Of a DNA stretch of 64,000 nt, positions 1-44,464 are shown one piece after another; position 1 is the first letter of the stretch, and each line of letters starts with the position of its first letter. The notes beneath the pieces are model-generated. The model did no database searches. It was not told the origin of the DNA and worked only from the letters and a program-made list of their open reading frames with translations. The position numbers and the translations under genes were made by a program. The stretch is from Physcomitrium patens. Taxonomy: Eukaryota > Streptophyta > Bryopsida > Funariales > Funariaceae. Where the stretch lies: NCBI RefSeq assembly GCF_000002425.4, contig NC_037263.1, positions 6,820,959 to 6,884,958 of the forward strand, written 5' to 3'.

Positions 1-1287
1 AATAAATGCTTTGAAATAGAAGCAAAGCCACCTTTGTGTTGGCACATTGGATTAAAGCAAACGTATGAGCAAGAGAAATAAAATAAAATAAGACTTGCCT
101 AAAGCACACTAAGTCTTGAAATTTTTGAAAATTATTATTCACTCTGCAAAATCAATTAAATTCCATCTATTACTATACATATTTTTCAGCATTTTTTTGG
201 TCGCCCATGATTTGTTCCACCTTGTAAAAAAAAATACCATTGTTTGATTGTTGTTTAATTTTTCTACATATGATTTTCAACCAGACCTAATCATATTCTA
301 TCAAGTTGGATAAAATCAAATCTCTAGTATAGAGGTGACTTCACACTTTTATGTTTAAATACAAGCTTGCTTCATTGCATCTAAATAGAGTATAGGCATA
401 ACCTCCTTAATAGTAATTATATGGTAGAAGCTTTTAAATTCAAGTTGCTAGATACATTTAAGATAATATTGAATATCAAAACCATCATCACATGGTCTAA
501 AATGACCTTAAATTATGAGATGTCAATATGAGATATCTAAAGCAAATGCAGCAATTATGGATTTGATTCCTTCCAATAATACCTCTTTTATACTTGATAG
601 AATTCTATGGCTTAGATCAAATGGTTTTTGGAATTACAAATTTCACTACCACCATTCCATACCAAATGGTTTTTGGAATAGCAAATTTTGTTGTATTTGA
701 TGGATTGGTATACAACTATGCTTTTAAAATTTGGTTTGAAATTATGGATGTGATTAAATGGGTGAAGTGGGATTTTTGAAGACTTAGATATGAAATTAAA
801 TAGGACAATGGTGACAATGATTACTTGAGACAAAAAGAGAGAAGAAAGGGGGAGAGAGGAGAGAAAGAAGAAAAAAGGGGATTAAAAACAAAAACCTAGG
901 ATAAGGATTGGAAACAAGGATGGATATTGGAAACAAAGACAAGAGAGAGAGAGAGAGAGAGAGAGGGTTAAAACAAAGATTGGAAACAAGGACGAGAGAC
1001 AAAGGTTGGAAATAGGGATGGATGTTGGAAATAGAAACAAAGAAGGAAGGATTGGAATGGAAGATGAAAGGATATAATGATGGTTTTGATTCGTGAATTT
1101 ATTTAGTAAAAATCAATGTCAATTTAATATTATTTATTATATATTACAGATTTTTTATTATTACTTTTATTTATTTATTTATATTTTTAAAATAATTAAA
1201 AATAAAATTATGATGTAATTATTACATTGCTATCAATGACATGCATCACAAACAACCAAAATGTCATTATACTTTTATATCACTTAA
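1..1287. other. unassigned AT-rich and purine-rich DNA
   Basis: No gene or recognisable element is seen. The short open frames between 515 and 1002 are low-complexity and show no domain. Positions 826-1070 are strongly purine-rich on the plus strand, with a degenerate repeat built on GGAAACAARGAYGG-like units and a GA run. A short phrase reading ATGGTTTTTGGAAT occurs twice, near 620 and 665. Confidence 0.6.
942..965. repeat. (AG)n microsatellite
   Basis: An uninterrupted AG dinucleotide run of about 12 units within the purine-rich tract. Confidence 0.9.
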
Positions 1288-1823
1288 TGTCAAGGATATG
1301 AGCTTCAAAGAATTAAAAGATCAATACATTCTTGTGTCACTTGAAAAGACTAAAAAATCACTAAAAGATGATGTAATGTTAAACTAAAAAAGCGTTTGTT
1401 AAAGACAAAAATACTACAAAGTCTTGAAACAAGATTAAGGACTAGAAAGCTGTTAACAAGAGTAAAGTAGGCTTCATTCTTGCCTCCATATATACTAACT
1501 AACTAGGAGCTATATGGTGATGTTCTATAGGACCTCCAACATGTGTTAACTTTGTAAAATATATCTTAACTTGCAAGGTAAGTTTTCTATAAGTGTGCCA
1601 TATAGTTAGCTTATTCTACAAGCTATCAATATGTGTGACATATGATTAACTTGTTGAGTAAGTTTTTAACCTATTAATCAATTATAAACATGTGTAAAGT
1701 CAAAATCATATCTATGAAGCTTTTAAGAAGCTTTTATAGAAGATATCATGAAATTATTTACTTTTACTTACTTTTAATTAAGTACAAAGATAAATATTGG
1801 AATAAATATGTATGCCCATGACA
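1288..1823 (-). repeat. 3' LTR of element B (C-type LTR)
   Basis: It begins TGTCAAGG and ends ATGACA on the plus strand, so it is bounded by TG and CA. The part near 1300-1430 resembles the LTRs of element C more than those of element A. It retains a TATATA motif and a degenerate form of the leader hairpin seen in A. Confidence 0.85.
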
Positions 1824-1859
1824 TTATTCACTACATACTCTGATTTTTTTCCTCTTCAA

Positions 1860-2165
1860 AGATGATTGATAGGGCCTTTCAACCATCGATAGTGTTCCAT
1901 ACTAGGGCGGAAAGACCATCCAGTTATTTGATCATTATTAAGGCCTTCATAACTTCCTTCAAATATAACATTTAGAACATCGTCAGGAGTTGTTTCTACC
2001 TCTAATAAAATCACCAAACATCGAGAGTCCCTTCTAAGGTCATGATACCAAACACGTTTTATCTCGCCATCTATTTGAAGAAGAACATATTGTTCTTCAC
2101 GATCTTCATCTTGATTACGTCATCTTGAAGATTGTAACAATCGTAATGTCATGTCCAACAGTCAG
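1860..2165 (-). mobile_element. Element B, post-pol ORF remnant
   Basis: This clearly matches, at the DNA level, the extra ORF of element A at 4877-5161, in the same place between the chromodomain end of pol and the 3' LTR. It is a degraded copy. It is useful because it shows that the extra ORF is an old, shared part of the family. Confidence 0.7.
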
Positions 2166-2732
2166 TAAATGAAGGTTCTTTAGTTGAACCCGTTGGTTGT
2201 TGGTTTTCCATCTCCTTAGCATCATAATTACAAAGAAGCTACAAACAAGGATTGTAAGTAGAATGTTATCTTGCCTAGATCTTAATTCTTTTATAAGGAA
2301 GGATTTCATCTTGATTTTGATGGATGTTGTTGATGAAAAGCCTCCACGACCTTTGTTGCATTTACAAGATTCTTTATTGGCTCTCATGTGTGTTTACTAA
2401 TATCATATCTCTGCCAATAGATAAGATATTCTAATTTATTTCAACGTTGCCTTGAAGCTAGGACTTCTTGTACTTTGAATTCTTCATTATTGTCTACTTC
2501 TATAGGAAGAGGTGAAGCTTGTTTTCTTCTTGATATGTCCATTGTCTTGTATGGTTCAAGAAGAGAGACATGGAATATTGAATGGATTTTCATTGAGCCT
2601 GGTAGGTGCAAACGATATGCAACTAGATTGATTTGTACAAAAATAAAAAATAGTTTTAGCCTTTGATAGTCCAACTTGTCACAAGGACAAGTAGTCTTGA
2701 TATTGCAATAAAGTAACCATACCTTGTTACCC

Positions 2733-3175
2733 ATGACATACATATTTATTCCAATATTTATCCATGACTTTTCAATAATAGGAAATTATGGATACAATAT
2801 AACTTTGGAACTAATATCCAGGGATTTTTGGTGGCTACAAATGTGGAAGGCAGTCAAAGATTTTGTACAATCTTTTGATGTTTGTTCAAGATCAAAAACT
2901 CTTTGTCATCGACCTTGCGGACTTCTTCAACCATTACTTTTTCCAAAATAACCATGGTCTTTTGTTTCTATGGATTTCATCATAGATCTTCTGATCTCAA
3001 GTGTTTATGACTCTATATTCATGATAGTAGATTGTTTTACCCAGATGACATATTTTGTACCATATATAAAATCTATCAGAGGTGAAGAAACAACTAAGCT
3101 CTTTCTTGATAACATCTATGGCTATCATGGATTACCTAAAGATATTATATCGAACTTGTTTAATGAAAGTTGAAT
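2733..3175 (+). mobile_element. Opposite-orientation integrase segment inside element B
   Basis: The plus strand reads integrase sequence here (zinc-binding CDVCSRSK-like stretch, then a MDFIIDLLIS-like catalytic-core start), while the flanking integrase, chromodomain and RNase H sequence of B reads on the minus strand. The segment is preceded at about 2733-2765 by sequence matching the first 25-30 bases of a C-type LTR. It is either a local inversion or a nested fragment of a plus-strand relative. Confidence 0.7.
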
Positions 3176-4217
3176 CAATAATTAGTGTTGATTTCATTGC
3201 TCAAAGATGTAGATGCTTTGGCTTCAAAAGAATTCTCCGTTATTGATTAAAAGGAGCATTTCATTCCTTTGGTGTAAGGTAAGTTCGTTTAGAGAGTACA
3301 TCTGACAAATCTTGTTGTTTTTCGATCGATAAGTGATCTTGAATTCAAATCTTGACAAAGACATACTCCAAGAGGCTTGGCGATGATTCAAAACACGTGT
3401 TGACATAAAATATTCAAGATTCTTGTGATCCATATACACAGTGATTGGACTAGGAGCACCTTCTAGATAATGGCACCATTCTTAAAATGAATCCATGATT
3501 ACAAGAAGTTCTTTGTTGTGGATCTTGTAGTTAATCTTGTCTATTGAAAATTTTTTGGAATGAAAAGCTACTCGGTGAAATTATCATCTGTTTCCATTTG
3601 TGACAATACGACACCAAAAGCAAAGTTTGATGCATATATTTCTATAAAAAATGGCTTAGAAAAATCAACACAATACAAGATTGGTGCAGAAAAAAAGGTT
3701 GTCTTCTAAGCTTCAAATGCTACTTCCACTTCTTAATTCCATTGAAGTTTGTCTTTACAAGTCAAACATGTAAGTAGAGCTGCAACTTGAGAGAAGTCTT
3801 TGATGAAGATCCGATAATAGTTGGCAAATCTCAAAAAGCATTAGACATCTCTTATCATTTTTGAGATGTTCAAATCCATAATAGCTTAAATTTTCTTAGG
3901 ATCCATCAGAAGTCCATCATTTGAAATGATGTATCCCAAGAAGTTGACTTGAGTGGTGTGAAATATACACTTTTCTATCTTGGCATAGATTTGCAAATCT
4001 CTTAGTTTTTGTAACACATGACGAACATGAAGTTTATATTCTTCTGTTTTCTTAAAATAAATTAAGATGTTCTATAGGTAACAAACAATAAAATCATCTA
4101 AAATCTTCCAAAAGATATCATTCATTAGATGTTGGAATGCTGCTGGTGCATTTCTAAGTCCAAAAGGCATGACGTTGTATTTTAAATGTCCATACTTTGT
4201 TTGAAACATAGTCTTCC

Positions 4218-4769
4218 TGTCAAGGACAAAGACTCGATGAGGGAAAATATACACCAAAAGGCTATCTCGATATAATAAGTCAAAATATAAACAAGTAGGT
4301 ATATTAAAAGGAAACTGGAATGGCTATTGCCACAAGACAAGAAACTAAAGACTCTTGAACCTGGACTAGAAGCAAGAAAAGAGTTGACAAGAGTGAAGAA
4401 GCCTTCACTCTTGTCTCTATATATACTATCTAACTAGGGGCTACGTGGCGACGTTCTATAGGACCTCCAATATATGTTGACTTTGTAGGACACATGCCTT
4501 GACTTACAAGGCAAGTTTTTCTACGTGTGGGCCACATAATAAGCTTGATCTTCAAGCTAACAACATGTGTGGCACATGGCCAACTTGTTGACCACGTTTC
4601 TAATCCAAAAAGTCAATTAAAGACACCTATGAAGTCAAAGCAGCGTCTAGGAAGTTTTTAGGAAGCTTCTATATTAAATATTATAGAATTAACTTACTTT
4701 TATCTACTTTTACTTACTTCTACCTATTTTTATATGTAATTATTAGCTTACATGATTATGGCCGTGACA
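4218..4769 (-). repeat. 3' LTR of element A
   Basis: Its plus strand starts TGTCAAGGAC and ends GGCCGTGACA. It is 99% identical to the copy at 10038-10589. On the minus strand it is directly preceded by a G-rich purine tract (complement of 4770-4785), the expected plus-strand primer site. Confidence 0.96.
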
Positions 4770-4876
4770 TTACCCCCCCTTCTAGAGACGAGTTCCACGA
4801 GGAGCGGTCATCATATGTTGAAGAAATCTATGATGCGACGAATTGTATTCGCCACATACTCTGATCTCTGTTCTCT

Positions 4877-5161
4877 TCAAAGATGATTGATAGGGCCTCT
4901 CAACCATCGATAGTATCCTATACCAGGGCGGGAAGACCACCCAGTTATTTGATCATTGTTGAGGCCTTCGTAACTTCCTTCGAATAGAGTATTCGGAACA
5001 CCATCAGGAATTGTTCCTACATCTAGCAAAATCACCAAACATCGAGAGTCCCTTCCCAAATCGTGATACCAAATACGTTGTATCTCACCATGTGTTCGAG
5101 GAAGAACATATCGTTCTTGAAGATCTTCATCTCGATTGCGTCGTCTTGAAGGTTGTGACAA
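4877..5161 (-). CDS. Element A extra ORF downstream of pol, unknown protein
   Basis: An open frame of about 94 codons lies between the pol stop and the 3' LTR. The product is hydrophilic and arginine-rich at its start (SQPSRRRNRDED) and ends with an aromatic and glycine-rich stretch (ITGWSSRPGIGYYRW). No signal peptide, membrane segment or known domain is recognised, so an envelope is unlikely. Equivalent sequence is present in the same place in B (1860-2165) and C (about 18420-18830). It may be a real accessory ORF or a conserved 3' non-coding region that happens to be open. The exact start codon is uncertain. Confidence 0.5.
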   Translation of the reverse strand: MSQPSRRRNRDEDLQERYVLPRTHGEIQRIWYHDLGRDSRCLVILLDVGTIPDGVPNTLFEGSYEGLNNDQITGWSSRPGIGYYRWLRGPINHL

Positions 5162-5327
5162 TCGTAATGTCTCGTCCGGCAGGTCAGCAAACGAAGGTTC
5201 TTGAGTTGAATCCGCTGGTTGTTGGCTCTCTATCTAATTAGCGTCACAAATGCAAAGAAGTTACAAACAAGGATAGGAAATTGAATGTTATCTTGCCTCA
5301 ATCTTGTCTCTTTTATAAGAGAGATTT

Positions 5328-8090
5328 TCATCTTGGTTTTGATGGATGTCGTTGATAAAAAACTTTGACTTTAGCTGATGCATTTCCTAGATTCCTGGAT
5401 GGCTCCCATGTGCGTTCACTAATATCATATCCGTGCCAATGAACAAGATATTCCAGCTTATTTCGGCGCCGCCTTGAGTCTAATATCTCTTCCACCTCAA
5501 ATTCTTCATTATTATCTACTTCTATAGGAGGCGGTGGCATTTGTCTTCTTCCTTGTATATCCACTGTCTTATATGGTTCAAGAAGAGATACGTGAAATAC
5601 AGGATGGATCTTCATTGACTCCGGTAGATGTAACCGATATGCAACTAGGTTGATCTGTTCAGAAACAGAAAAGGGGCCAAGCCTACGATAGTCCAACTTG
5701 TCACAAGGTCGAGTAGTCTTGATATTGCGACGAAGTAGCCATACCTTATCATCCACGTTGATTTGTGGTTGCTCCTTACGATATAGATCTGCGTTTATCT
5801 TTTGTCGTTCTTGAGCTTCTTTCAATTGCGTCTTCATTATTGCATGTAACTCTGACAACCGATTTGCCATATCTTCTGCTGCAAGATTATCAACTTTTGA
5901 AAAATCAAAAGTATCAAGTCGTGGATGATAGCCATAATTGGCAAAGAAAGGTGTTTGTTGCGTGGAAGAATGTACCGTATTATTATAAGCAAACTCTGCC
6001 AATGGCAGAAGGGTTGTCCAATCATCTTGTTGGTAGTTGATAATACACCTTAAATATTGCTCCAAGACTTGGTTTACGTGCTCTGTTTGTCCATCAGTTT
6101 GAGGATGGAAAGCCGAAGATAGCTTTATGTCCACTTTTAAAATCTTGAAAAGGGTCCTCCAAAATCTTGACACAAATTGAGTTCCCCTATCCGATATGAT
6201 ATCTTTAGGTAATCCATGATAGCGATAGATATTATCAATGAAAAGCTTAGCTGTTTCTTCACCTGTGATAGATTTTGTACATGGCACAAAATGTGCCATC
6301 TTGGTGAAACGATCTACTATCACAAATATAGAATCATAAGATCTTGAGCTTGGAAGATCTGTGATGAAATCCATAGAAACAGAAGACCATGGTTGTTTTG
6401 GTATAGGTAATGGCTGAAGAAGTCCGTAAGGTCCATGACGAGGAATTTTTGATCTTGAACAAATATCACATGATTGTACAAAGTCTTTGACTGACTTCCA
6501 CATTTGTGGCCACCAAAAATCTCTTGATATGAGTTCCAAAGTCTTATTATATCCAAAGTGCCCTGCTGCTGGAAAGTCATGACGTGCTTGAAGAACACGT
6601 AAACGTGCTTCTCCTTCTGGAACATATAGGCGTCCTTCAAAATATAATAGATTATTCTTGAACTCGAACTTAGAAGGATCATGAGACTTAGAAGAATTAT
6701 TCTTGATATCATAAACAAGAGGGTCTGAGGACATACTAGACTGGATTTGCTTGAGAAAAGTTGAATCAACAGTCAATGTTGATTTCATTGCTCGGAGATG
6801 AAATTGCTCCGGTTTCAAGAGGACCGTTCTTTGTTGCTCAAAAGCTGCATCTCCTTCTTTTGGTGCAAAATAAGAACGTCTAGATAGGGCATCAAACAAA
6901 CCTTGTTGTTTTCCTAGCCGATAAGTGATAATGAACTCGAATCTTGACAAAGACATACTCCAACGAGCTTGACGACGATTCAACACGCGTGTTGACATGA
7001 AATACTCGAGGTTCTTGTGATCTGTATACATAGTGACTGGACTAGAAGCGCCTTCTAGATAATGACGCCATTCTTGAAAGGATTCCACGATCGCAAGAAG
7101 TTCTTTGTCGTGGATCTCATAATTGATCTTGGCTACTGAGAATTTTCTTGAATGAAAAGCTATCGGATGAAGTTTGTCATCTGATTTCATTTGTGATAAA
7201 ACTGCACCCAAGACAAAATCTGATGTATCTGTTTCCATAAAAAATGCCTTGGAAAAATCAACACGATATAAGACTGGTGCAGAGACAAACGATGACTTCA
7301 AGGCTTCAAATGCTGCTTCCGCTTCTTGATTCCATTGGAATTTATCTTTACTAGTCAAGTGTGTAAGTGGAGCTGCAACTCGTGAGAAATCTTTGATGAA
7401 GATCCGATAGTAATTGGCAAATCCTAAGAAACATTGGACATCTCTTACTGTCCTTAGAATCTTCCAATCCATGATTGTTTGGACTTTCTTAGAATCCATC
7501 ATGAGACCATCATTTGAAATGATGTATCCTAAAAAGTCAACTTGAGTAGTGTGAAATATAGACTTTTCCATCTTGGCGTACAATCCTGCATCTCTAAGTT
7601 TTTGTAATACTTGACGAACATGTATTTCATGTTCTTCGACGTTCTTAGAATAGATCAAGATATCGTCTAGATAGCAAACGACAAAATTGTCTAAGAATTC
7701 ACGAAATACATCATTCATGAGATGTTGAAAAGCAGCTGGTGCATTCGTGAGTCCAAAGGGCATGCCATTATATTCGAAATGTCCATACCTAGTTCGAAAC
7801 GCAGTCTTCCATTCATCTCCTTCTTTGATCCGTACTAGATTATATGCTCCTCTTAGATCTATTTTTGTATAGATCTTAGCTTGATTCAACTGGTCAAGGA
7901 GTCCTGATATCAAAGGTAATCGATACCTGTTCTTGATTGTGATCTTGTTGAGTCCTCGATAATCAACACACATTCGTAAAGTTCCATCTTTTTTCTTTAC
8001 GAATAGAATTGGAGCTCCTGCTGGAGATTTTGAATGGCGTATGAAATTCTTCGCTAAATTCTTGTCAATATATGTCTTGAGTTCAGCCAT
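5328..8090 (-). CDS. pol: Element A pol: RT, RNase H, integrase, chromodomain
   Basis: One frame of about 920 codons. The reverse transcriptase is first, with the catalytic YLDD box near residue 140 and the [13 protein letters not shown] motif just before it. RNase H follows near residues 270-400. The integrase has its HHCC zinc region (CDICSRSK), then the D,D,E core with SMDFITDLP, SDRGTQF and DGQTEHVNQ. A C-terminal chromodomain is seen around residues 860-905 (EYLVHWHGYDISERTWEP), with the aromatic residues that bind methylated histone tails in this family. Chromodomain and integrase order place it in the chromoviruses. Related sequence continues upstream towards the protease. Confidence 0.95.
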   Translation of the reverse strand: MAELKTYIDKNLAKNFIRHSKSPAGAPILFVKKKDGTLRMCVDYRGLNKITIKNRYRLPLISGLLDQLNQAKIYTKIDLRGAYNLVRIKEGDEWKTAFRTRYGHFEYNGMPFGLTNAPAAFQHLMNDVFREFLDNFVVCYLDDILIYSKNVEEHEIHVRQVLQKLRDAGLYAKMEKSIFHTTQVDFLGYIISNDGLMMDSKKVQTIMDWKILRTVRDVQCFLGFANYYRIFIKDFSRVAAPLTHLTSKDKFQWNQEAEAAFEALKSSFVSAPVLYRVDFSKAFFMETDTSDFVLGAVLSQMKSDDKLHPIAFHSRKFSVAKINYEIHDKELLAIVESFQEWRHYLEGASSPVTMYTDHKNLEYFMSTRVLNRRQARWSMSLSRFEFIITYRLGKQQGLFDALSRRSYFAPKEGDAAFEQQRTVLLKPEQFHLRAMKSTLTVDSTFLKQIQSSMSSDPLVYDIKNNSSKSHDPSKFEFKNNLLYFEGRLYVPEGEARLRVLQARHDFPAAGHFGYNKTLELISRDFWWPQMWKSVKDFVQSCDICSRSKIPRHGPYGLLQPLPIPKQPWSSVSMDFITDLPSSRSYDSIFVIVDRFTKMAHFVPCTKSITGEETAKLFIDNIYRYHGLPKDIISDRGTQFVSRFWRTLFKILKVDIKLSSAFHPQTDGQTEHVNQVLEQYLRCIINYQQDDWTTLLPLAEFAYNNTVHSSTQQTPFFANYGYHPRLDTFDFSKVDNLAAEDMANRLSELHAIMKTQLKEAQERQKINADLYRKEQPQINVDDKVWLLRRNIKTTRPCDKLDYRRLGPFSVSEQINLVAYRLHLPESMKIHPVFHVSLLEPYKTVDIQGRRQMPPPPIEVDNNEEFEVEEILDSRRRRNKLEYLVHWHGYDISERTWEPSRNLGNASAKVKVFYQRHPSKPR

Positions 8091-8379
8091 CTCATCTTGC
8101 GATAAACTATAAATTGGTCCAAATGGTGGCTGAGTTCCTTCCTTGAGGTCGATTGAACAATCATATGGGCGATGCTCAGGAAGAATATTTGCATTCTTTT
8201 TCTCAAAAACGTCTTGATATTCCTGATATTGACTTGGAATGCCAATTGAAGTCTTTACATTTTCAGAAATAGGTGCAGCATAAATAGCAAAAGTTGATCC
8301 TTCTTTTGCTGCGTGTATAAATGCTTTTGCACCTATCAGTACGGGTTTAAATACTAGACTTATAATTTTTTACTTGGTT

Positions 8380-8740
8380 GATAGAACTATTAATAACGCT
8401 TTGGGAAAAGTCAAGTTTACGTGAATTCCAATCTATTCGAGGGTTATATTTTTCTAGCCAGGATAAACCTAAAATAACTGGATTGGACGGGGATTTAATT
8501 ATGTTAAAAGCTATGTAGCTATCATGACCGTCTATTGTTACTTTTATAGGATGAGTTTCATGAGTGACATCTCCAGAAGACAAGGGACGACCATCTATGA
8601 CTTCTACATGTACTGGTTTAGGTTTCTGTACAAAGCGTATTTTACGACTTTTAACAAATTGTTCATCTAAAAAACATGCTGAGGCTCCCGAATCTAATAA
8701 AGCAGAGGCTTTGTAATTCTTAGGTCCTAAATATAAGTCT
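8380..8740 (-). mobile_element. Element A protease region
   Basis: A retropepsin-like region between gag and RT. The active-site motif LLDSGASACFLDE reads on the minus strand near 8660-8700, followed by the flap and second hydrophobic-glycine region (NPVILGLSWLEKYNPRIDW). It lies where the family's aspartic protease is expected and would process the Gag-Pol polyprotein. Confidence 0.8.
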
Positions 8741-8819
8741 ATTATAAATTAAGGAGAGGGTTCTGAGGAGAGGATAGGACCTTCATTAGGAATTGTACAA
8801 GGTTCCAGCTGCACGGTCC

Positions 8820-9824
8820 CTATTGTAGCTGGACGAATCCGTTTTTCGACATGTTGTCTTCTTTGACCGTCGTACCCCTCATTTTATAGTTGCGTCGTTT
8901 CTTTGGACAATGTTGAGCAGTGTGCTTAGGTTCTCCGCAATATAAACATAATCCTTCTTGACGACGACAAATCTTTTCTTGCTCAGTTAGGGGTTTAAAA
9001 CGTACTGCGTCAATTTGCATGTCTTCTACTTCTGAATGTACGTTTGGCAAAGATGTTGATGTTGCCATTGAGTAATAGCGTTGAGGTTCCCGTGAATGAT
9101 TCTCGGATCGAAATTTGAAAAGTCGATTATCACATTTTACCGCAAAATCGATTGCTTGACTCAAAGTTTGAGGATCAGGTAAGTTGAGCATCAATTTCTT
9201 TACTTCGTATTGCAATCCATAAAGAAATTGACTGATGAGTGCAGCATCATCCCACTTGATGTCAATTGCAAGTTGTCGAAATTGTGAAGCATATACTGTT
9301 ACTGAGCGATTTCCTTGTCGCAAAATTTGGATCTTATTTGTTGCAACACGAGTTGCATCGTGTTCACCATACATAGATCGAAACTCCGCCAAAAAAGCTT
9401 CCAAATTGTCCAATATTGGATTTCGTTGTTCAAGAAAAGACGAAAACCACGATAATGTAGAACCAGAAAGTAGAGTGCCAATAAACTTGACTTGTGATCC
9501 TAGCGTTGGATAGCTTTGCGATTGAAGTTCAATTGCCAATTGTACTTGATTGATGAACCCTCGAAACTTTGATCTCGTACCATCAAATTTCTCAGGTAAG
9601 GCAATTCTTGGTTCTCTAGTGCTTATAGGGTGTTGTACAATTGGAGAAGGAACGTGATTTGTTGTAGATGTTGAAGCAGCTCCGATCATCTCTATATCTC
9701 CACTTTCTGCTATTCTTGTTCTTTCCTGTGTTGGTGAATTGAGTTGATGCATCGCAAGCATTAACTCCCTCATTTGCTCTTGCATTTGTGCCATTGCACT
9801 CTTCATTTCAACAAGCTCTGTCAT
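8820..9824 (-). CDS. gag: Element A gag
   Basis: An open frame of 334 codons from the ATG at 9824. The N-terminus is a predicted helical stretch rich in M, E and Q. The central part is a Retrotrans_gag-like region (LPEKFDGTRSKFRGFINQ, then SWFSSFLEQ and YGEHDATRVATNKI). Near the C-terminus is one CCHC zinc knuckle, CLYCGEPKHTAQHC, for RNA packaging. The frame can be extended upstream by 13 codons, but the ATG at 9824 opens the Gag-like MTELVEMKS sequence and is the better start. Confidence 0.9.
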   Translation of the reverse strand: MTELVEMKSAMAQMQEQMRELMLAMHQLNSPTQERTRIAESGDIEMIGAASTSTTNHVPSPIVQHPISTREPRIALPEKFDGTRSKFRGFINQVQLAIELQSQSYPTLGSQVKFIGTLLSGSTLSWFSSFLEQRNPILDNLEAFLAEFRSMYGEHDATRVATNKIQILRQGNRSVTVYASQFRQLAIDIKWDDAALISQFLYGLQYEVKKLMLNLPDPQTLSQAIDFAVKCDNRLFKFRSENHSREPQRYYSMATSTSLPNVHSEVEDMQIDAVRFKPLTEQEKICRRQEGLCLYCGEPKHTAQHCPKKRRNYKMRGTTVKEDNMSKNGFVQLQ

Positions 9825-10024
9825 AATGACACTAAGAAGAAAAATTTGTTTGATATTGCTCAAGACAAAAGAAAAGAAAGACTTGATAACAAAGAAGATA
9901 CTAAGAACAATATCAGTTTAGAAGTGGGTAATCCGCAAACTTCTAATACGCTTATGTCTTGTCAAGACAAAAGGGGTAATCCACTCTTACTCAAGAAAAA
10001 ACAAAGCTCTGATATTGTAAGTGT

Positions 10025-10035
10025 ACTCTTGTCAA
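10025..10035 (-). promoter_or_regulatory. Candidate self-primer binding site of element A
   Basis: The minus strand reads TTGACAAGAGT two bases inside the 5' LTR. It is the exact 11-base complement of ACTCTTGTCAA, which reads on the minus strand at 10214-10204 inside the LTR, 31 bases after the start of the TATA box. B (12312-12324) and C (13492-13502) keep the same arrangement. A weak tRNA-iMet-like match (TATCAGAGC) lies 24-32 bases inside the LTR, further in than is usual. Confidence 0.6.
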
Positions 10036-10037
10036 TC

Positions 10038-10589
10038 TGTCAAGGACAAAGACTCGATGAAGGAAAATATACACCAAAAGGCTATCTCGATATAATAAGT
10101 CAAAATATAAACAAGTAGGTATATTAAAAGGAAACTGGAATGGCTATTGCCACAAGACAAGAAACTAAAGACTCTTGAACCTGGACTAGAAGCAAGAAAA
10201 GAGTTGACAAGAGTGAAGAAGCCTTCACTCTTGTCTCTATATATACTATCTAACTAGGGGCTACGTGGCGACGTTCTATAGGACCTCCAATATATGTTGA
10301 CTTTGTAGGACACATGCTTTGACTTACAAGGCAAGTTTTTCTACGTGTGGGCCACATAGTAAGCTTGATCTTCAAGCTAACAACATATGTGGCACATGGC
10401 CAACTTGTTGACCACGTTTCTAATCCAAAAAGTCAATTAAAGACACCTATGAAGTCAAAGCAGCGTCTAGGAAGTTTTTAGGAAGCTTCTATATTAAATA
10501 TTATAGAATTAACTTACTTTTATCTACTTTTACTTACTTCTACCTATTTTTATATGTAATTATTAGCTTACATGATTATGGCCGTTACA
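10038..10589 (-). repeat. 5' LTR of element A
   Basis: 552 bp, TG...CA, followed by the target duplication CTTCC at 10590-10594. It contains the minus-strand TATA box and leader hairpin described separately. Confidence 0.96.
10204..10245 (-). promoter_or_regulatory. Element A LTR core promoter and leader hairpin
   Basis: On the minus strand a TATATATAG box (10245-10237) is followed by a perfect 13-bp inverted repeat, GACAAGAGTGAAG then CTTCACTCTTGTC, separated by four bases (10235-10206). The likely transcript start, about 31 bases from the TATA box, falls at ACTCTTGTCAA within the second arm. The TATA box and leader are the best-kept part of the LTR across old copies. The same block lies at 4384-4425 in the 3' LTR. 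Confidence 0.7.
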
Positions 10590-12324
10590 CTTCCATTCAT
10601 CTCCTTCTTTGATGCATACTTGATTCTATGTTCCTCGTAGATCTATTTTTGTATAGATCTTAGCTTGATTCAATTAATCAAGGAGTCTAGATATCAAAAG
10701 TCGTGGATACTTATTTTTAATGGTGATTTTGTTGAGTCCTTGATAATCGACACACATTTGCAATGATCTATCTTTTTTCTTCACAAATAAAATTGGAGCT
10801 CTTACTGGAGATTTAGAATGGCATATGAAGTTTTTTGCAAGATTTTCTTCAATATACTCCTTGAGTTCAACTAACTCATTTTGTGATAAACTGTAGATTG
10901 GTCCAAATGGCGGTTGTGCTCCTTCTTAAAGGTCAATTGAGCAGTCATAAGAATGATGTTCTAGAAGAGTATCTTCATTCTTCTTGTCAAATACATCTTA
11001 AAAATCTTGATATTGGCTTTGAATGCCACTTGAAGTCTTTCCACCAGTAGAAACAAGTGCGACATAAATGATACAAGGTGATCTTTCTTTTGTAGTATGC
11101 AAGAAAGCTCTTGTACCTACAAATACAAGTTTAATTGTACTAGACTTATGACTTTCTACTTGATAAACTATGTTCTTAGTTATACTTTCAGAAAAATTAA
11201 GACTATGAGAAGTCCAATCTATTTTAGGGTTATATTTTTTTTAGCCATGATAAACCTAAAATGACTAGATTAGAGGGAGATCTAATGCTATTAAATATTA
11301 CAAAGCTACTATAACCATTAGTTGCTACTTCTATAGGAAGAATTTTATGGATAACATGTCCTGAAGACAATGGACGACCATCTATGAGTTCTACATGAAC
11401 AGATTTAGTTTTCTTCACTAACAGTATGTTATATCTTTTAATAAATTTTTCATCTAAGAAACATGCTGAGGCTCTTGAATCTAGCAAGGCAGAGGCTTTG
11501 TGATGTTTAGGTCCTAAAATAACATTTATCATAAAAGAAGGAGAGGTTCTAAGGAGAGAATAGGACCTTCTCTAGGTATTGTATAAGATTCCAGCTGCAT
11601 GGTCTCTATTATAGTTGGACAAACTCGTTTTTCGACATACTATCTTTTTTAATAATCGTACTCCTCATTTTATGGTTATGTCACTTCTTTAAGAAATGTT
11701 GAGTAGTATGCTTAGATTTTCTACAATATAAGCACAATCCTTCCTAATGATGACAAGTCTTTTCTTGCTCAGTAAGAGGTTCAAAACGTATTGCATTAAT
11801 TTGCATATCCTTTACTTCTAAATGTATGTGTTGTATTTGATTGATAAATCTTCTAAACTTTGATCTGGTGCCATCAAACTTCTCAAGTAGGGTAATTCTT
11901 GTTCTCTAACACTGAAGGGTGTTCCACTATAGGAGAAGGAATATGATTTGGTGCAAATGTTGAAGCAGCTCCAATCATTTCTTTATCTTCAGTCCCTGCC
12001 AATCTTGTTGCTTCTTGTGGTGATAAATAGAATTGACGTATTACAAGTATTAACTCCCTCAATTGTTCTTGTATTTGTGTCATTGCACTATTCATTTCAA
12101 TAAGTTCTGCCATGATAACACTTAGAAAAGAGAAGATGTCTAATATCGCTCAATATAAATGGAAGAAAGGGCTTGAGAACAAAAAAATACTAAGAAAAAT
12201 ATCAGCTTAAAAGAAGGTAATGTGCAACTTCTAATATGCTTATGTCTTATCATGAGAAAGGAATAATCCACTCTTAATCAAGACAAGAAAAAACTTTGAT
12301 ATTGTAAGTGTACTCTTGTCAATT

Positions 12325-12851
12325 TGTGAAGGACATGAACTAAAAGATGATGCATAAATCAATAAAATCTGTGTCAAAAAAAGTGACAGAATTGAAATAA
12401 GGAAGTACGTATATTAAAAAGAAATTAGAATGGCTTATTGCCAAAAGACAAGAAAACTTGAGACTCTTGAAACTAGACTAAAAGTAAGAATAGAATTGAC
12501 AAGAGTGAAGAAGGCTTCACTCTTGCTTCTATATATACTATCTAACTAAGAGCTACATAGCGATTTTCTATAGGACCTTTAATATGTGTTGACTATGCAA
12601 GTCACATACCTTAGCTTACAAGGCAAGTTTTCTATATGTAGACCACATAATTAACTTATTCTTGAAGCTATCAACATGTGTAGCACATGGCCAACTTGTT
12701 GATCGTGTTTTTAATCTAAAAAGACAATTAAAGACATCTATAAAGCTTCTAAGAAACTTGTATAGAAGATATTATGGATTTGACCTATTTTTACCTATTA
12801 TTATCTAAATCATATAAGTAATTATTGATTTACATGTGTATGTTCGTAACA
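12325..12851 (-). repeat. 5' LTR of element B (A-type LTR)
   Basis: It begins TGTGAAGGAC and ends TTCGTAACA on the plus strand. It aligns with the element A LTRs along its length, unlike B's other LTR. The 13 bases directly inside it (12312-12324) are complementary to leader sequence at 12494-12506. Confidence 0.85.
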
Positions 12852-12880
12852 ACTATATGACAATGTTCTATAAAATCTCT

Positions 12881-12933
<53 letters not shown>

Positions 12934-12945
12934 ATTTTGTAAGAC
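12852..12945 (-). repeat. LTR remnant D, left piece, with a (TA)n run
   Basis: This matches the middle of the A-family LTR in minus orientation (the ...TATGNNNATGTTCTATA... region). A TA microsatellite has expanded at 12883-12931. The piece ends with AAGAC, the target duplication of element C, and continues at 20171. Confidence 0.7.
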
Positions 12946-13489
12946 TACCATAGACATACATATTTATTCTAATATTTACCTATATAATTAAGTAGAAGTA
13001 GGTGAAAATAGATTTATTTCATAGTATTTTTTAATATACTTCAAATAAGCTTCATAGATATTATTTTGACTTTATATGTATTTTTATTTGATTGATAGGT
13101 TAAAAACTTGGTCAAAAAATTAACCACATGTTCATAACTTATAAAATAAGTTTATTATATGATGCACATATAAAAAACTTGCCTTATAAGTTAAGATATG
13201 AATCTTGCAAAGTTAATATGTTTTGGAGGTCCTATAGGACATTGTCTTGTAGCTTTGAAGCATATATTTAGTTAAGAGTATATATAGAGGCAAGAATGAA
13301 GCCTTCATCACTCTTGTCAATGCTTTTCTAGTCTTTAATCTTATTTCAAGGCTTTTTAATTTTTTAATTTTTTTTTGATAATAGTCATTCTAATTTAATA
13401 TCATACCATCTTTGAGTGATTTTCTTGTCTTTTTGAGTAATACAAGAGTGTATTGACATTTTGGTTTTTTGAGGTTTATGTCCTTGATA
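12946..13489 (+). repeat. 5' LTR of element C
   Basis: Aligned to the B 3' LTR it starts at TACCATAGAC (ancestral TGTCATGGGC) and ends CCTTGATA (ancestral CCTTGACA). A TATATATAG box at 13279-13287 is followed 31 bases later by ACTCTTGTCAA (13310-13320). TTGACAAGAGT, its complement, lies at 13492-13502 just after the LTR. Confidence 0.85.
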
Positions 13490-16400
13490 ATTTGACAAGA
13501 GTACTAATTTATTATTTTTAACTTTTTTAGAAGTAAGTAGATTATCTCACTTCATTAATTGAATTTTGAAGGTTGTAAATTATCTATCTTTAAATAATTT
13601 TTAAAATTTTCTAACACCAATTTTTTCATTAAAGAGAGCATATTATCTCTCTATGTCAAAAAAATTATTTGATATTAGAGGATTTGGATTATCTTCTTCT
13701 AATTTGATTTGTGGATTTGTTAAGTTTTTTGAAATGAAAGAAAAAATCATAAATATTATATTTGGTAGAAATAAAAATAAATTTATAATTATTACAGATA
13801 TTCACAAATTTGTTAATAATCCTAGAATAGAAATTTCATGCATCACCAGCATCAACCATAAAAATAATAATCCTATGCCTACTGAAACAATTCAGAATCT
13901 ATGGCAAAAAATTGTGTAGTTAAAAGAAGCAAGTACATCAACCTCACAACTAAATCTAAGAAGTTTGGTTCTTTAAGTATGATAGTGATATGAATTAGAA
14001 TGCCCAATAATTTTGATGGAATGAGATCAAAATTTTAAGGATTTTTGTACTAAATCAAGCTCTATCTAAGATTGGATATCTCCCAATACTTCAATGGATT
14101 TACTCAAGTTAGGTTTATAGATGTACTTCTATCTAAAAATGTTATCTCTTGGTTTATATTTTTTATAAAAAAAAGATTTATGACTTTTTTATAATTCAAA
14201 TTCATTTTTAGAAGCATTTATAGCTACATTTGGAGATAAAGATTGAAAAAGAGTAGCAAAGAACAAGCTCTTATCTTTACAACAAAGATCATGATTAGCT
14301 ATCATATATGTTGTTGAATTCCAAAAACTCGCTTGCAACATGGATTGGAATGACAAAGCTTTTATCAATGAGTTTTGATATGAATTAAAAGATAATATCA
14401 AAGATTTATTATTAACAATATAGAAAGCAAAATCCCTGGAACAATTTATTGCTCAAGCCATTGCATGTGACAATTGATTATTTGAAAGGTGTCAAAAATA
14501 GAGATTTAGCAAGAGAAAAATAAGATTAGTAATAATGATAGCTATTAAATTTTCAGAATCTTATTTATTAAGGTCGAAACTAATACAAATTGATATGGTA
14601 CATTTTAAATCTCTCACTAAGCAAGAAAAGACTCAACATTATCAAGAAAGTTTGTGCTTATATTAAAGAGAAGCTAAGCACATTGCTCAACATTATCCAA
14701 AGAAACAATCAAATCACAAAATGAGGAGTATGATTGCTAAAGAAGACAATGTATTAGAAAAAAAGTTTTTTTAGTTAGAATAGGGACTATGTAATTGGAA
14801 TCATGTACAACACCTAGTAAAGGTCTTATTTTCTCTTTAGATCCCTCATATTATTTTACAATAGATGTATGTATAAGACTTAATTACAAAGTCTTTGCAT
14901 TATTAGATTCAAGAGTCTTAGCCTATTTTATAGACAAAGACTTTGTCAAAAAATAAGAAATATCTTTAGTCAAGAAAACTAAATCTGTGCATCTAGAAGT
15001 CATAAATAGTCATTTTTTATCTTTTAGAGATATTACTTGTAAGACTATTTTTTTAGATGTAGCAATTAAAGTTCATAATAGTGTAGTAATATTTAATGTG
15101 ATAAGATCTTCTTCAAATTTAATTATTTTAAGATTATTGTGATTAAAATATAATCTTCAAATAGATTGGATTTCTTGTAATCATAATTTTTTTTATAGTT
15201 AATTCAAAATTTTAATAGTGAAAGAAAAATAGATAAGCCTAATATATTCAAATTCTTATTGATAAGTGCAAGAACTTTCATGCATGTAGCAAAAAAAATG
15301 TCATCTTTTGATATATATGCTACATTCATTTTTTATGGTAGAAAGATGTCAAGTGATATTCTTAGCCTGTATTAAGATTTTTAGGATGTTTTTGAAAAGA
15401 AAAATATAGATATTCTTCTAGAATATCGATCCTATAATTATTTAATTGATCTATAAGAAAGAACTTAACCACCATTTAGATTGATTTATAACTTATTACA
15501 AAATCAGTTGGTTGTACTAAAAGAACACATTGTCAAAAACTTAGTTAAGAACTTTATATATCATTTGAAATCCCTAGCAAGAAGTCTTATCTTATTTGTA
15601 AAGAAAAAAAATAGATCTTTGCAGATGTGTATAGATTTTTAAGGATTTACAAGATTACCATGAAGAATAGATATCACCTATTTTTAATTTTAAGACTTCT
15701 TGTCTAATTCAATCAAGCAAAGATCTATATGAAAATAGATCTATGAAAAGCATACAACTTGGTCCACATCAAAGAAAGAAATGAATTAAAGATTGCTTTT
15801 TGAATTAGGTATGGATATTTCAAATATAATGTCATGCCTTTTGGACTCACGAATGCTCCAACTACTTTTCAACATCTTATGAATGATATCTTTTGTAAGT
15901 TTTTTGAGGATTTTATTATTTTTTTTATTTAGATGATATTTTAATCTATTCTAAGAATATAAAAGACCATGAACTTCATATTCATTGTGGGTTACAAAAA
16001 CTTAGGGATGGAAGATTATATATAAAGATGAAAAATTGTATATTCTACACTACTTAAGTTGATTTTTTAAGATACATTATTTTCAACAAAAGATTAATGA
16101 TAAATCCTAAAAAGATTCAGATTATATAGATTAAAAGGTCTTAGAAACAATTAAAGATGTATAATATTTTTTAAGATTTGTTAATTATTATCAAATCTTC
16201 ATCAAGATTTTTTTTCAAATTGTGGTTCTTCTTATATGTCTGACATTTCAAATCAAACTTGAGTGGAGCAAAGAAGTTGAAATATCTTTTGAAGCCTTAA
16301 AGACAACATTTATTTTTGCACCAATTTTGTATTATATCAATTTTTCTAAGACATTCTTCATAAAAAGAGATATATTAGACTTTGCTATGGATATTGTTTT

Positions 16401-19400
16401 ATTACAAATGGAAGCATATGATAAATTCCATTTGGTAGCTTTTCATTCCAAGAAATTTTTAGCAATCAAGATTAATTACAAGATCTACAACGAAGAACTT
16501 TTTGTAATTATGAATTTATTTTAAGAATAGCGTCATTATCTAAAAGGTGCTTTTAGTCCAATTATTATATATGTCGATCATAAGAACCTCAAATACTTTA
16601 TGTTTGCATGTATTTTGAATCATCACCAAACCTATTGAAATATGTCTTTATCAAGATTTGATTTTAAGATCACCTATAGATTCAAAAAATAACAAGATTT
16701 TTTGGATGTCATTTTTAGATGTTCTTATCTTATATCAAAAGAAAGAAATGTATCTTTTAATCAAAAAAAAATAATTCTCTTGAAGCTAGATCATTTTCAC
16801 CTTTGAGTAATAAAATCAATATTAATTATTGATTTAACTTTTATGAAGCAAATTTAATCAAGTATATCTTTTGATTTTCTTGTTTATGATATCAAAAATA
16901 ATTCTTCTAAGTCTCAAGATACTTTTAAGTTCAAGTTTAAGAATAATCTACTCTACTTTGAGAGAAAATTATAAATTTTAGAAAGTAAAGTATAATAATG
17001 TATTCTTTAAGCTCGTCATGACTTTTGAGTAGCTGAATATTTTTAATAACACAAGACTTTGGAATTAATATCTAGAGATGTTTTATAGCCTCAAATATGG
17101 AAGGCACTCAAAGACTTTATACAATCATGTGATATTTATTTAAGATCTAAAACTCTTCATCATTGACCTTATAGACTTCTTCAACCATTACCTATTTGGA
17201 AACAACTATGATCTTTTGTTTTTATAGATTTTATTACTGATCTTCCAATCTTAAGTTCATATGATTCTATATTCGTGATAGTAGATCATTTTATTAAGAT
17301 GGCACATCTTGTACTATGTATAAAATCTATCACAGGTGAAGAAATGGTTAAATTTTTTCTTGACAACATCTATTACTATCATGGATTATCCAAGGATATT
17401 ATATTAGATAAAAAAATTCAAATTGTATCAAGATTTTAGAAAACTCTTTTTAAAATTTTAAAGATAGATATAAAGTTCTCTTTGACCTTTCATCTTTAAA
17501 CTAATGGACAAACAAAAAAAGTGAATTAAGTTTTGGAATAGCATTTGAGGTATACCATCATTTATCATCAAGATAATTAAACAACTCATTTGTCATTGGC
17601 CGAGTTTGTGTACAATAATTTAGTACATTTTTTTATTTAAGAAACACCTTTCTTTGTTAGTTATGATTATCATCTATTACTTAATACTTTTGACTTTCAA
17701 AATTTGATAATTTTATAGTTTAAGATTTGACAAATTGTTTGTGAGAATTACATGTACTAATAGAGGGACAATTAAAGGAAGCTCAAGAACAAAAAAGAAT
17801 CAATGCGGATGCCTATTTTAAAGAATAATCACAATTTAATGTAGATTAAATATGGCTACTTCATTACAATATCAGGATATCTCATCTTTGTGACAAGTTG
17901 GACTATTGTAGCCTTGAACCTTTTTTTATTAGAGAACAATTCAATCCTATTGCTTATTGATTATATTAATTAGAGTCTATGAAGATTCATTCTATATTCT
18001 ATGTATCTTTTTTTGAGCCATATAAGATAAAAAATATCTTGAAAAAAATACGAAAGCCACCTTTTATAAAAATAGATAATAATCAAAAGTTCAAAGTGGA
18101 AGAAATCTTTAATTGAAGGCAATGCCAAAATAGATTAGAATATCTTGTTCATTGGTATGAATATGATATTAGTACATATGGGAGCTAGCAAAGAATCTTC
18201 CAAATGTAATAAAGAAGATTGAGATTTTTCATTAACAACATCCATCAAAACTAAGATAAAGAATATCAAATCTTTGCCATAAAAGAAACAAGATTCAAAA
18301 AAGATAGTATTCTACTTTCTACTCTTATTTATAACTTTTGTATTTTTGTAACACTAAAAAGATGAAAAATCAATAACCAAAAAATTTAATTTAAGAATTA
18401 TTACTTACTTACTTACTTGTTGAATAAGACATTGCAATTGTCATAACATTCAAGATGATGTAATTGAAATGAAGATACTTAAAAATGACATGTCTTTCTT
18501 TGAATAGATAGCAAGATATAACATATTTGATATCACGTCCTTCAAAGAGACTCTCAGTGTTTGGTGATTTTATTAGAAGTAGGAACAACTTTTGATGATA
18601 TTTTATATATTTTATTTGAAAGGAGTTATAAAGCCTTTAACAATAATCAAATAGTAAGGTGACCTTCTCGCCTTAATACAAAATATTATTGATAGTTGAG
18701 AGGACCTATCAATCATCCTTAAAAGAACAAAGATCAAAATATGTGGCAAATATAATTTTCTACATCTTCAATTTTTTCTACATATGATGACCATTCCTCA
18801 TAGAACTTGTTCCTATGAAAGAAGGTAATGTCATAGTGTCATATTGTAATACAACTATATGATAAAAATATAATCAAAAATAAAATTTTAATTAATTTTT
18901 AATCATCTTGATTCAATAATAATTCAAGATATTTAAAAATGGCTTTTATAAAAGCCTCTTAATTTTGTATTAATCTAACAATACAATTGAGTGATATTTG
19001 GGTTTTGATAAAAGAAGGTATCAAAAGTTGGGAGTTTGAGGTTGGATAGGATTTTTGTGATATCTAAAGATCTATTAGTTCGATCAAGGTGAAATTTGGC
19101 ATCATATTAGAAGACTTTAAAATCAAGTTACATACCAATTTTGAGTTGAAGTTAAGAGTTGGAAAAGAAAAAATCACTACTAAAATATCTGCATCAACTT
19201 TCAAGTTAGTGGCCAAGTGATATCAATGCAATTTTTGGACTTTTTTTCTGAATTTGTAGGTTGAATTGGATTGAATTTTTCTAAGTATATAAAAGAATTA
19301 TAGTGGCATCTGTATGCAAAATTTTACATTGAGTAGATAGTTAGATTAGGAGTTACAACTTGCCAAAGCTCATTGACTAGGATTAGGGCTTACAAAGAAA

Positions 19401-19638
19401 AATCAAAATTACCTAATTATGAAAGTAATAAGATAATTGGAGTTTATATATGATTGAAGTTATTAAGAAGAGTGTTTTTAAGCACTTTGTATTGACTTTA
19501 AGTAATTTTGAATTGAAATTTGAATTTCATTCTTTTTATATGGATGAAACCTATTAGGTATTCTTGAATATTTGTAAAATACAACTTCACCTTCCATAGT
19601 CAAGTGTTTGGTGCATTCTCAAATCAGAAAATACATAT

Positions 19639-20170
19639 TACAACAACAAAAAAATATATTTATTCTAATATTTGTCTATAAAATTAAATAGAAGTAAGTA
19701 AAAGTAGATTTATTTCATATTATTTTCTAAAAATGCTTTTTAGGAGCTTCATAGACTCTACTTTAATTCTATATGTATTTGTAGTTGATTGATAGGTTAG
19801 AAACTTGATCAATAAGTTAACCACATATTGATAGCTTGCAAAATAAGCTAAGTCTATGGCATACATATAAAAAACTTATTTTAGAAGTTAAGATACTTGT
19901 CTCACAAAGTCAACACATTTTAGAGATTGTATATGACATTGCCATGTAACTCCTAGTTAAGAGTATATATAGAGGCAAGAATGAAGGATTTTTTATTCTT
20001 GTCAATGCCTTTTTAGTCCATAGTCTTATTTTAAGGCTTTTTAATCTTTTTTTCTTTGGCAATAGCTATTCAAGTTTAATATCATATCATCTTTGAGTGA
20101 TTTTTTAGTCTTTTTGAGTGACAGAAGAATGTATTGACATTTTAGTTCTTTGAAGTTTATGTCCTTAATA
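19639..20170 (+). repeat. 3' LTR of element C
   Basis: Its right edge is fixed by the target duplication AAGAC at 20171-20175. Its left edge is approximate because the first bases are degraded. The TATATATAG box and leader are still recognisable around 19960-20010. Confidence 0.8.
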
Positions 20171-26902: not shown

Positions 26903-27603
26903 GTAGACTAGGCTAAAGAACAATCCGCAAATTGGTAGAATTGGAGTTCGAAGCTCTTAAACAACCATGGAAAAGTAGCAATTTCTTCAACACGAAACGT
27001 GTGACAAAAATAAAACTCGTGTTTTTAAGCCATGCATCACGTGACATTCTATTGTTATAGTCGATATTAGTTTTGAATCTTGTATGCTATATTCTAAATT
27101 TTGTACATATTTTGTTTATGACACAACTCGTTATACATAGAGAAATTTGTTTTTTGACTATTTTCTGTTAAGTAATCAAATTTGTGGATACAATGTTGTA
27201 ACATAAAACAATACATTTACAAATACACTTTTCAGAAAAAGAATAAAATAATAAAAATAATAAAAACAAAAACTATAATCAATCAAAACATGCTCTCCTG
27301 ATAAGAAAAGTGACTAAAAAAGTGATCGATCCACTGATGATGATGATAAGTGTATTTTAATCAGATGCAAATTATGATGTTAAATAGTACTTTGTTTTGA
27401 AACTTGGCAAAGAAATAGACAAAAATCCGAAAAGCTTTGAACAATGTTCTGGGATTTTTCATTTATGCAGACATGGTTTATTTTGTTTTGCAATTTTGCA
27501 TGTCTGGGGATGTTTTCCACTCCGTCTAAAAAATTATTTGCTAGGTATTCGAAGTTGGCAGATAGATTAACTTGTGAGCAAAAATGTCAAATGTCAAAAG
27601 ACG
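26903..27603. other. unassigned spacer between minisatellite and tRNA
   Basis: AT-rich with no recognised gene. Immediately left of the tRNA lie short T runs on the minus strand (about 27580-27600), which fit an RNA polymerase III terminator. Confidence 0.5.
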
Positions 27604-27686
27604 TCCGACCAACCGGATTCGAACCAGTGACCTAAGGATATCTGCAACTCTACAGTCCTCCGCTCTACCAACTGAGCTATGGTCGG
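27604..27686 (-). tRNA. tRNA-Tyr (GTA) with a 10-nt intron
   Basis: The minus strand folds as a complete tRNA: acceptor 5' strand CCGACCA pairs with TGGTCGG, with discriminator A. The D arm reads GCTCAGTTGGTAGAGC (A box) and the T arm GGTTCGAATCC (B box). The anticodon loop CTGTAGA reads GTA. A 10-base intron (AGTTGCAGAT) follows position 37, the standard place for plant nuclear tRNA-Tyr genes. C1-G72 is the eukaryotic tyrosine identity pair. A short T run downstream supplies termination. It is nuclear and probably functional. Confidence 0.96.
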
Positions 27687-29141: not shown

Positions 29142-29628
29142 TGTAATTGACATATATATTTATTTAGATAAGAAGTAGTAGGGAGTAAATAAATATAGGT
29201 AGATTTAATAAAATCTTCTGGTGAAGCTTCTTAGAAGCTTTATAGACACATATTTGACTTTATACATGTTTATAGTTAAGTAGGTTAGAAAACTTAATTA
29301 ACAAGTTAGCTATGTATTGTATATGTAGATAGCTTGTGGTATAAGCTAATGATGTGTGGCACACATATAAGAAACTTGCCTTGCAAATTAAGACATGTGT
29401 CTTGCAAATTGGACACATATTAGAGGTCCTATAGAACATTGCTACATAGCTCATAGTTAGATAATATATATGGAAGCAAGAGTGAAGCCTTCTTTACTCT
29501 TATCAATGCCTTTTTAGTCCTTAGTTTTGTTTCAAGACTTTATAATTTTCTTGTTTTTGGCAATAGTCATTCTAATTTAATATATTACCATCATTGAGTG
29601 ATTTTTTAGTCTTTTTGAATGACATAAG

Positions 29629-29830
29629 TATCAAGGATAAGAACTTGATGAAAAAAAATAAACAAGTAAGACTTTTTCAAAAAAAATATGACAAAATAAA
29701 AATAAGGAACTATGCATATTAGAAAGGAAGCTGGAATGACTATTGCTAAAAAATAAGGAAACTAGAGACTCTTGAAATTAGATTAGAAGCAAAAAGAAAG
29801 TTGACAAGAGTGGAAAATGCTTCTCTCTTA

Positions 29831-29869
<39 letters not shown>

Positions 29870-30199: not shown

Positions 30200-30211
30200 A
30201 TAAGAGTGTAT

Positions 30212-30216
<5 letters not shown>

Positions 30217-30248
<32 letters not shown>
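30217..30248. repeat. poly-T run in LTR E
   Basis: About 32 T in a row near the end of the C-type LTR. The matching place in the LTR tail at 61547-61712 also holds a long T run, while element C has only short T runs there. Confidence 0.85.
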
Positions 30249-30249
<1 letters not shown>

Positions 30250-44461: not shown

Positions 44462-44464
44462 CGT

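Follow-up and report, generated by a model that had tools for sequence, protein, structure and literature searches.

Element A, a retrotransposon of Physcomitrium patens, was identified with high confidence as a chromovirus of the Tcn1 clade (Tf1/sushi group), very probably P. patens RLG1, that would prime its own reverse transcription. Self-priming of the Tf1/sushi type had been proposed in a first-pass annotation of this DNA, and the proposal was supported by the anatomy of the element, by compensatory change between two families and by the clade to which the element belongs. According to the spacing from the TATA box, transcription would begin 31 bases past the start of the box, with the A of TTCACTCTTG as its first nucleotide. 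The first 11 nucleotides of the RNA, ACUCUUGUCAA, would fold back onto UUGACAAGAGU, two bases beyond U5. By analogy with Tf1, cleavage by RNase H behind nucleotide 11 would release a 3' end for extension across U5. Extension across U5 from a primer of 11 nucleotides would set the LTR end two bases from the primer binding site (PBS). The cap site, the RNase H cut and the use of the leader as primer are inferred here from sequence and analogy. The window, namely the whole stretch of 64,000 nucleotides that was analysed, was C11:6820959-6884958, and the genome scanned comprised 470 Mb in 101 contigs.

Anatomy of element A and its relatives in the window

Element A was a gypsy-type element of 6.4 kb on the minus strand. 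Its 5' LTR (TG...CA, 552 bp) occupied 10038-10589 according to LTR comparison and the target duplication, and its 3' LTR occupied 4218-4769 according to LTR comparison; the two differed at 5 positions. The target site duplication CTTCC (5 bp) was located at 4213-4217, with its second copy at 10590-10594, and the host site of the insertion was an older relative, element B. The gag open frame (8820-9917, minus; Retrotrans_gag and Ty3_capsid) and the pol open frame (5328-8369, minus; RT, RNase H, integrase, Tf2-1-like SH3 and chromodomain) were uninterrupted as they stand. The pol frame thus contains the RNase H domain.

The 5' LTR terminated with CCTTGACA at 10038, which was followed by GA and then by TTGACAAGAGT (10035-10025, minus strand), the putative self-priming PBS, two bases past the LTR. 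This LTR end was fixed independently of the pairing, by comparison with the 3' LTR and by the CTTCC duplication. The leader or predicted self-primer, ACTCTTGTCAA, was the exact complement of TTGACAAGAGT. It was located at 10214-10204 on the minus strand (LTR position 376), was supported by covariation and corresponded to nucleotides 1-11 of the predicted RNA. The TATA box TATATATA (10238-10245, minus) started at LTR position 345, that is, 31 bases ahead of the leader. The two-base offset, the exact complement and the TATA spacing described in the first-pass annotation were hence reproduced, and its coordinates were correct. A further copy of the leader, at the start of the 3' R, was present in the 3' LTR (4384-4394, minus).

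The same arrangement was observed in older elements of the window. Element C, an old copy on the opposite strand to element A, had a TATA start at 13279, a leader 31 bases on (13310-13320, plus) and a PBS at 13492-13502 (plus), which confirmed the pairing, offset and spacing reported for it earlier. Element B, which was split by element A, paired over 13 bases between its PBS (12312-12324, minus) and its leader (12494-12506, minus), also as reported. A decayed LTR piece of the E family, described below, lay at 44259-44464 (plus) with its leader worn to AGTCCCAACAA, and no matching PBS was found downstream of this piece. In positions 1-20000 and 29000-32000 of the window, older copies of the element A family were nested and pieces of its LTRs were present, with further remnants near 1.4, 29.5, 29.8 and 31.5 kb. 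One tRNA gene was called by both ARAGORN and Rfam at 27603-27686 (minus), with an unclear anticodon. A frame of the window encoded a pectate lyase fragment whose nearest named relative came from Physcomitrium patens (69%), followed among mosses by Ceratodon (61%). This P. patens protein matched contig C1 of the scanned genome at 99% over residues 19-248, and in two more stretches at 96 and 99%.

The first-pass annotation had judged a chance match improbable, and the simulations agreed with this judgement. When the element A LTR was randomised 1000 times by a first-order Markov model, the 20 bases following the LTR found an 11-base match at some place in the LTR in 3 cases. Moreover, ACTCTTGTCAA with at most one mismatch occurred 15 times on both strands of the window, compared with 2.0 occurrences expected.

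The pairing was bounded in most copies to nucleotides 1-11 of the predicted RNA, as judged from 40 sampled loci. The next pair outward (leader position -1) formed in 6 of the 40 loci and the next pair inward (+12) in 3, and the limit of 11 bases was not strict because element B paired over 13 bases and the copies E2 and L001 over 12. CA was present at the predicted transcription start in 38 of the 40 loci. The bases after the LTR were GATTG or GTTTG in 37 loci and AATTG or ATTTG in the other three. The pairing probability of leader and PBS was 0.92-0.96 in all seven folded leaders.

Paired changes between leader and PBS across the genome

The pattern GTCCNTGACANNTTGNNNAGA, which combined the LTR end and the PBS, gave 2732 and 2623 matches in the genome, compared with 1 and 0 for the reversed control. 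Two PBS types prevailed, with TTGACAAGA or TTGTCGAGA at 80 of the 100 listed places. Places with a perfect pair of the A type (ACTCTTGTCAA/TTGACAAGAGT) numbered 3605 and those with a perfect pair of the E type (leader AGTCTCGACAA, PBS TTGTCGAGACT) 1640, with 0 for both reversed-pattern controls; these pair patterns were palindromic, so every place was listed on both strands. An E leader combined with an A PBS, the one mixed form counted, occurred at 4 places of the genome (C18:3161095, C20:4293459, C20:6882195 and C25:2093260), which are possibly recombinants or nested insertions. The leader and PBS of the E-type representative in the genome (C11:6815153) were the same as those of L001, and its LTR end was confirmed by its own 3' LTR.

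Three of the 11 pairing positions differed between the A and E families, and each differed on both sides (C-G to G-C, U-A to C-G and U-A to A-U); because the two families represent one evolutionary contrast, L001 being of the E type, the three double changes were not three independent events. The U5 regions of A and E2 were 47% identical (52/111), and leader and PBS each kept 8 of 11 positions. Of the 100 junctions listed, the first 24 had 14 PBS of the A type and 10 of the E type, each facing a leader of its own type. The pairing was 11/11 in 18 of these junctions and included one or two mismatched or wobble positions in 6; none was crossed, and TATATA was positioned 31-32 bases upstream of the leader in all 24. 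Leaders were sought as one or the other of the two known forms, allowing 4 substitutions at most, and 6 of the 11 PBS letters were set by the junction pattern; the procedure was blind to mixing of leader and PBS, yet not free of assumptions.

The alignment of eight sequences gave the same picture. All 88 of 88 leader-PBS cells were paired, whereas slid versions of the alignment were 32-41% paired. None of 500 shuffles attained the covariation score of 0.234, and 54 of 500 attained the number of pairs with double changes, although these tests were inflated by kinship among the aligned rows. Self-priming is strongly supported by the compensatory change between families.

The paired changes for which the first-pass annotation had proposed to test among copies were borne out between the families, with the three double-sided changes, and mostly failed within them. 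For 20 of the 100 listed places, PBS variants, judged on nine visible PBS letters, were accompanied by a matching leader change in 2 (L034 and L046) and by none in 18. A matched change of leader and PBS was observed in L045 at a different pair. Single PBS mutations were not matched copy by copy, and the rarity of matched changes within families was as expected from decay after insertion. The PBS variants were also considered as new families, a possibility that was rejected on these counts.

The U3 arm, the iMet-like site and alternative explanations

Directly upstream of the leader, element A contained a U3 arm, GACAAGAGTGAAG (10223-10235, minus), which complemented leader positions -4 to +9 and formed the perfect hairpin GACAAGAGTGAAG-GCTT-CTTCACTCTTGTC overlapping the leader. 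The arm formed 13 pairs in A, E2 and L001, with one G-U in each of the last two. It changed together with the leader between families, with two double-changed pairs in the alignment; in our reading, a third was masked by a gap in the arm. The aligned cells were 92.3% paired, with a score reached by 0 of 500 shuffles and a number of changed pairs reached by 107 of 500. Over the 40 loci, 448 of the 520 cells were Watson-Crick pairs, 38 were G-U, 25 were A-C and 9 were other combinations. If transcription starts as predicted, the U3 arm is present in the RNA only at the 3' end, where U3 is followed by R, and it might plausibly serve to mask the primer copy at that end.

The hairpin had already been raised as a partial alternative in the first-pass annotation, and it does exist and co-varies with the leader. 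It could be supposed that the U3 arm and leader are simply a promoter hairpin, and that the match after the LTR is a by-product of the palindrome through shared ancestry, with no priming. The overlap of the perfect hairpin with the leader and the letters GACAAGAGT shared by the arm and the PBS would suit such an origin. However, the arm pairs with a shifted stretch and leaves the PBS unexplained: the PBS pairs with leader positions +1 to +11, whereas the arm pairs with -4 to +9. The paired cells amounted to 100% for the PBS and 92% for the arm, and the position of the PBS exactly two bases from the LTR end was fixed by LTR comparison in both families. Furthermore, the leader-PBS pair of the contaminant contig L005, discussed below, had no such arm by eye. 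An origin as a by-product of the palindrome is therefore considered very improbable.

A second primer-like site was present farther downstream. The stretch CAATATCAGAGC of element A (10006-10017, minus), at bases 21-32 after the LTR, agrees at 9 of 12 letters with what we take to be the plant tRNA-iMet PBS, of which TATCAGAGC is presumably the last nine letters. In 40 sampled loci of both families (L033-L072), the start of TATCAGAGC lay 24-28 bases past the LTR, at a distance of 10-14 bases from the self-primed PBS. It was exact in 26 of the 40 and had at most one mismatch in 39, with several different trinucleotides preceding it, although the loci are related and so represent few independent cases. 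The complete TGGTATCAGAGC was found in one of the 40 copies, L072, and the E2 copy had TGGTATCAAAGC at this site. Over the whole window, matches to the tRNA-iMet PBS with up to 3 mismatches were at chance level (39 vs 41).

These counts are what a role of tRNA as the primer would draw on, either with tRNA-iMet at the TATCAGAGC site or with a tRNA fragment at TTGACAAGAGT. Priming by iMet, however, would be expected to yield an LTR that ends about 20 bases farther downstream than LTR comparison indicates. The iMet-like site was absent from A4, C and B by scan (B showed TATCAAAGT) and none was visible by eye in L001, yet these copies kept perfect leader pairing, so the site is not needed for the arrangement. 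A tRNA PBS starting with TGG, the form in which tRNA sites were sought here, was absent from positions 0-5 after the LTR in all 40 loci, unlike in the iMet-primed plant chromoviruses (Tekay, Reina, Galadriel and CRM), and the PBS differed between the families exactly as the leader did. Priming by a tRNA was accordingly given hardly any credence, and self-priming by the leader was retained. Most sampled moss copies thus carry two primer-like sites. Tentatively, the iMet-like site might be left over from a switch from tRNA priming to self-priming that shifted the LTR end upstream, or might still serve as a tRNA site during annealing or packaging. Separately, since the U3 arm changes with the primer, the 3' primer copy would be locked in the hairpin and priming would be left to the 5' copy. 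These readings are possible rather than probable. An origin of the site as a relic would fit PMC10085805, according to which plant chromoviruses primed by tRNA stand closest to the Tf1/sushi group.

Clade, relatives and comparison with known systems

The RT of element A was compared with its relatives, and the best 120 of 7880 matches included named sequences from Tremellales (63%), Powellomyces (63%), Ustilago (54%), Xenopus (59%), other frogs (52-65%), the alga Closterium (49%) and angiosperms (42-55%). In a midpoint-rooted tree of 26 rows, element A grouped with three named fungal and three named frog rows at 100/100, while the branching order within this side was largely open. Six angiosperm rows and Closterium stood apart from the element A side. 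We infer that the fungal and frog rows, which carry no such label, represent Tf1/sushi elements. The Chromo domain was detected at 9.3e-14, with the residues F, W and Y from EFEVEEILD...YLVHWHGY at what we take to be the aromatic cage positions of the chromodomain. By its sequence relationships, element A falls on the Tf1/sushi (Tcn1) side, away from the seed-plant chromoviruses. The aromatic cage is found in 95% of the plant elements of the Tcn1 clade (PMC6317226, in part).

Relatives were also present in misassigned contigs. Six contaminant contigs with relatives were found in prokaryote assemblies; two protein scans of IMG/VR gave no relatives, and in plasmid and phage collections the RT matches, at 28-39% identity, were confined to four records. 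The contig L001, a eukaryotic contaminant of a cyanobacterial assembly, had an RT 76% identical to that of element A. Its leader CAGTCTCGACAA was located at 128-139, with TATA 31 bases upstream, and its PBS TTGTCGAGACTG at 282-293, preceded by CCCTGACA and GT. The 12-base match was reached in 1 of 1000 randomisations of the same kind as above. L001 probably comes from another species, and it repeats the E family. In the cyanobacterial metagenome assembly AVDCRST_MAG81, six contigs with RT matches of 28-76% were eukaryotic contamination; the loci concerned are L001, L003 and the G001 contigs C16, C92, C123, C201 and C259.

The contig L005, a contaminant of a Neobacillus assembly, had an RT 49% identical to that of element A. 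Its candidate pair of 10 bases, chosen among about three dozen pairs of this length, consisted of ATCGAATCCT (4845-4854), which had TATA 31-33 bases ahead of it, and AGGATTCGAT (4956-4965) behind TTTCA and CT; the LTR edge was placed from a single LTR. The position of the pair, on the downstream side of pol, would suit a contig that passes through a collapsed LTR. Scans with words of 9-10 bases give many chance pairs in AT-rich DNA and were used only with the LTR edge in place; among the other loci of the 10-base scan, no pair had both TATA and LTR edge in place. L005 probably provides a third self-priming pair, with unrelated letters and the same two-base offset and TATA spacing.

The mechanism and its occurrence in mosses are already in print as a prediction. 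Self-priming was predicted for Tcn1 elements of mosses and club mosses by Neumann et al. (2019), with complementarity of at least 10 bp to the LTR as the criterion for each element (PMC6317226, in part). Element A showed LTR complementarity of at least 10 bases starting 0-5 bases past the 5' LTR, and it shares with those plant elements the RT clade, the aromatic-cage chromodomain, the host group and the predicted self-priming. The prediction concerned complementarity within each element, and compensatory change between families is unmentioned in the passages of PMC6317226 considered here. The first-pass annotation had regarded self-priming as surprising for a plant chromovirus, a view that was not sustained, given the position of element A on the Tcn1/Tf1-sushi side and the published prediction. 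In Tf1 of Schizosaccharomyces pombe, the first 11 RNA bases complement the PBS and cleavage occurs between bases 11 and 12 (PMC7175516, in part); the pairing of nucleotides 1-11 and the chromodomain integrase are common to Tf1 and element A. The likeness to Tf1 was drawn from its description; in the moss elements, the U3 arm co-varying with the primer and the downstream iMet-like site were observed as well. The two further duplexes that flank the primer pairing in the Tf1 pretzel (PMC10085805, in part) were not clearly found in the moss elements: a search gave an 8-bp candidate in A and a 7-bp candidate in A3, with none common to E2 and L001. Self-priming has also been proposed for Tcn1 of Cryptococcus neoformans (PMC7175516, in part), a fungal element; the likeness to fungal relatives was drawn from the RT of Tremellales (63%) and Powellomyces (63%). 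For SM-Tcn1 of Selaginella, the authors saw evidence of neither tRNA priming nor self-priming, according to the portion of PMC2864245 available.

RLG1 is the dominant chromodomain gypsy family of P. patens, with 5092 complete elements (PMC7466625, in part), a number comparable with the 3605 and 1640 paired junctions; its expression in protonema is reported in the same paper. The element A family is very probably RLG1, as judged from abundance, chromodomain and host. The terms "self-priming" and "primer binding" were absent from the RLG1 paper (PMC7466625). In a 2023 genome paper on fission yeast (PMC10085805, in part), PpatensLTR2 of P. patens was listed among chromoviruses, and the host range given for the Tf1/sushi group included non-seed plants. 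No report of the between-family compensatory change, the U3 arm or the iMet-like site was found in the portions of the open-licence literature covered. The self-priming mechanism in moss elements is therefore well supported and not new. What is added here is the compensatory evidence, a U3 arm co-varying with the primer, and the iMet-like site shortly past the PBS in most sampled copies. As far as the passages of the earlier work show, the case for self-priming in plant chromoviruses had been a match of 10 bases or more in each element, to which two moss families now add compensatory evidence, with matched pairs in the thousands and four of one mixed form. The moss is a plant system for testing Tf1-type priming, and both the U3 arm and the iMet-like site are relevant to the origin of self-priming and to the choice between the two primer copies.
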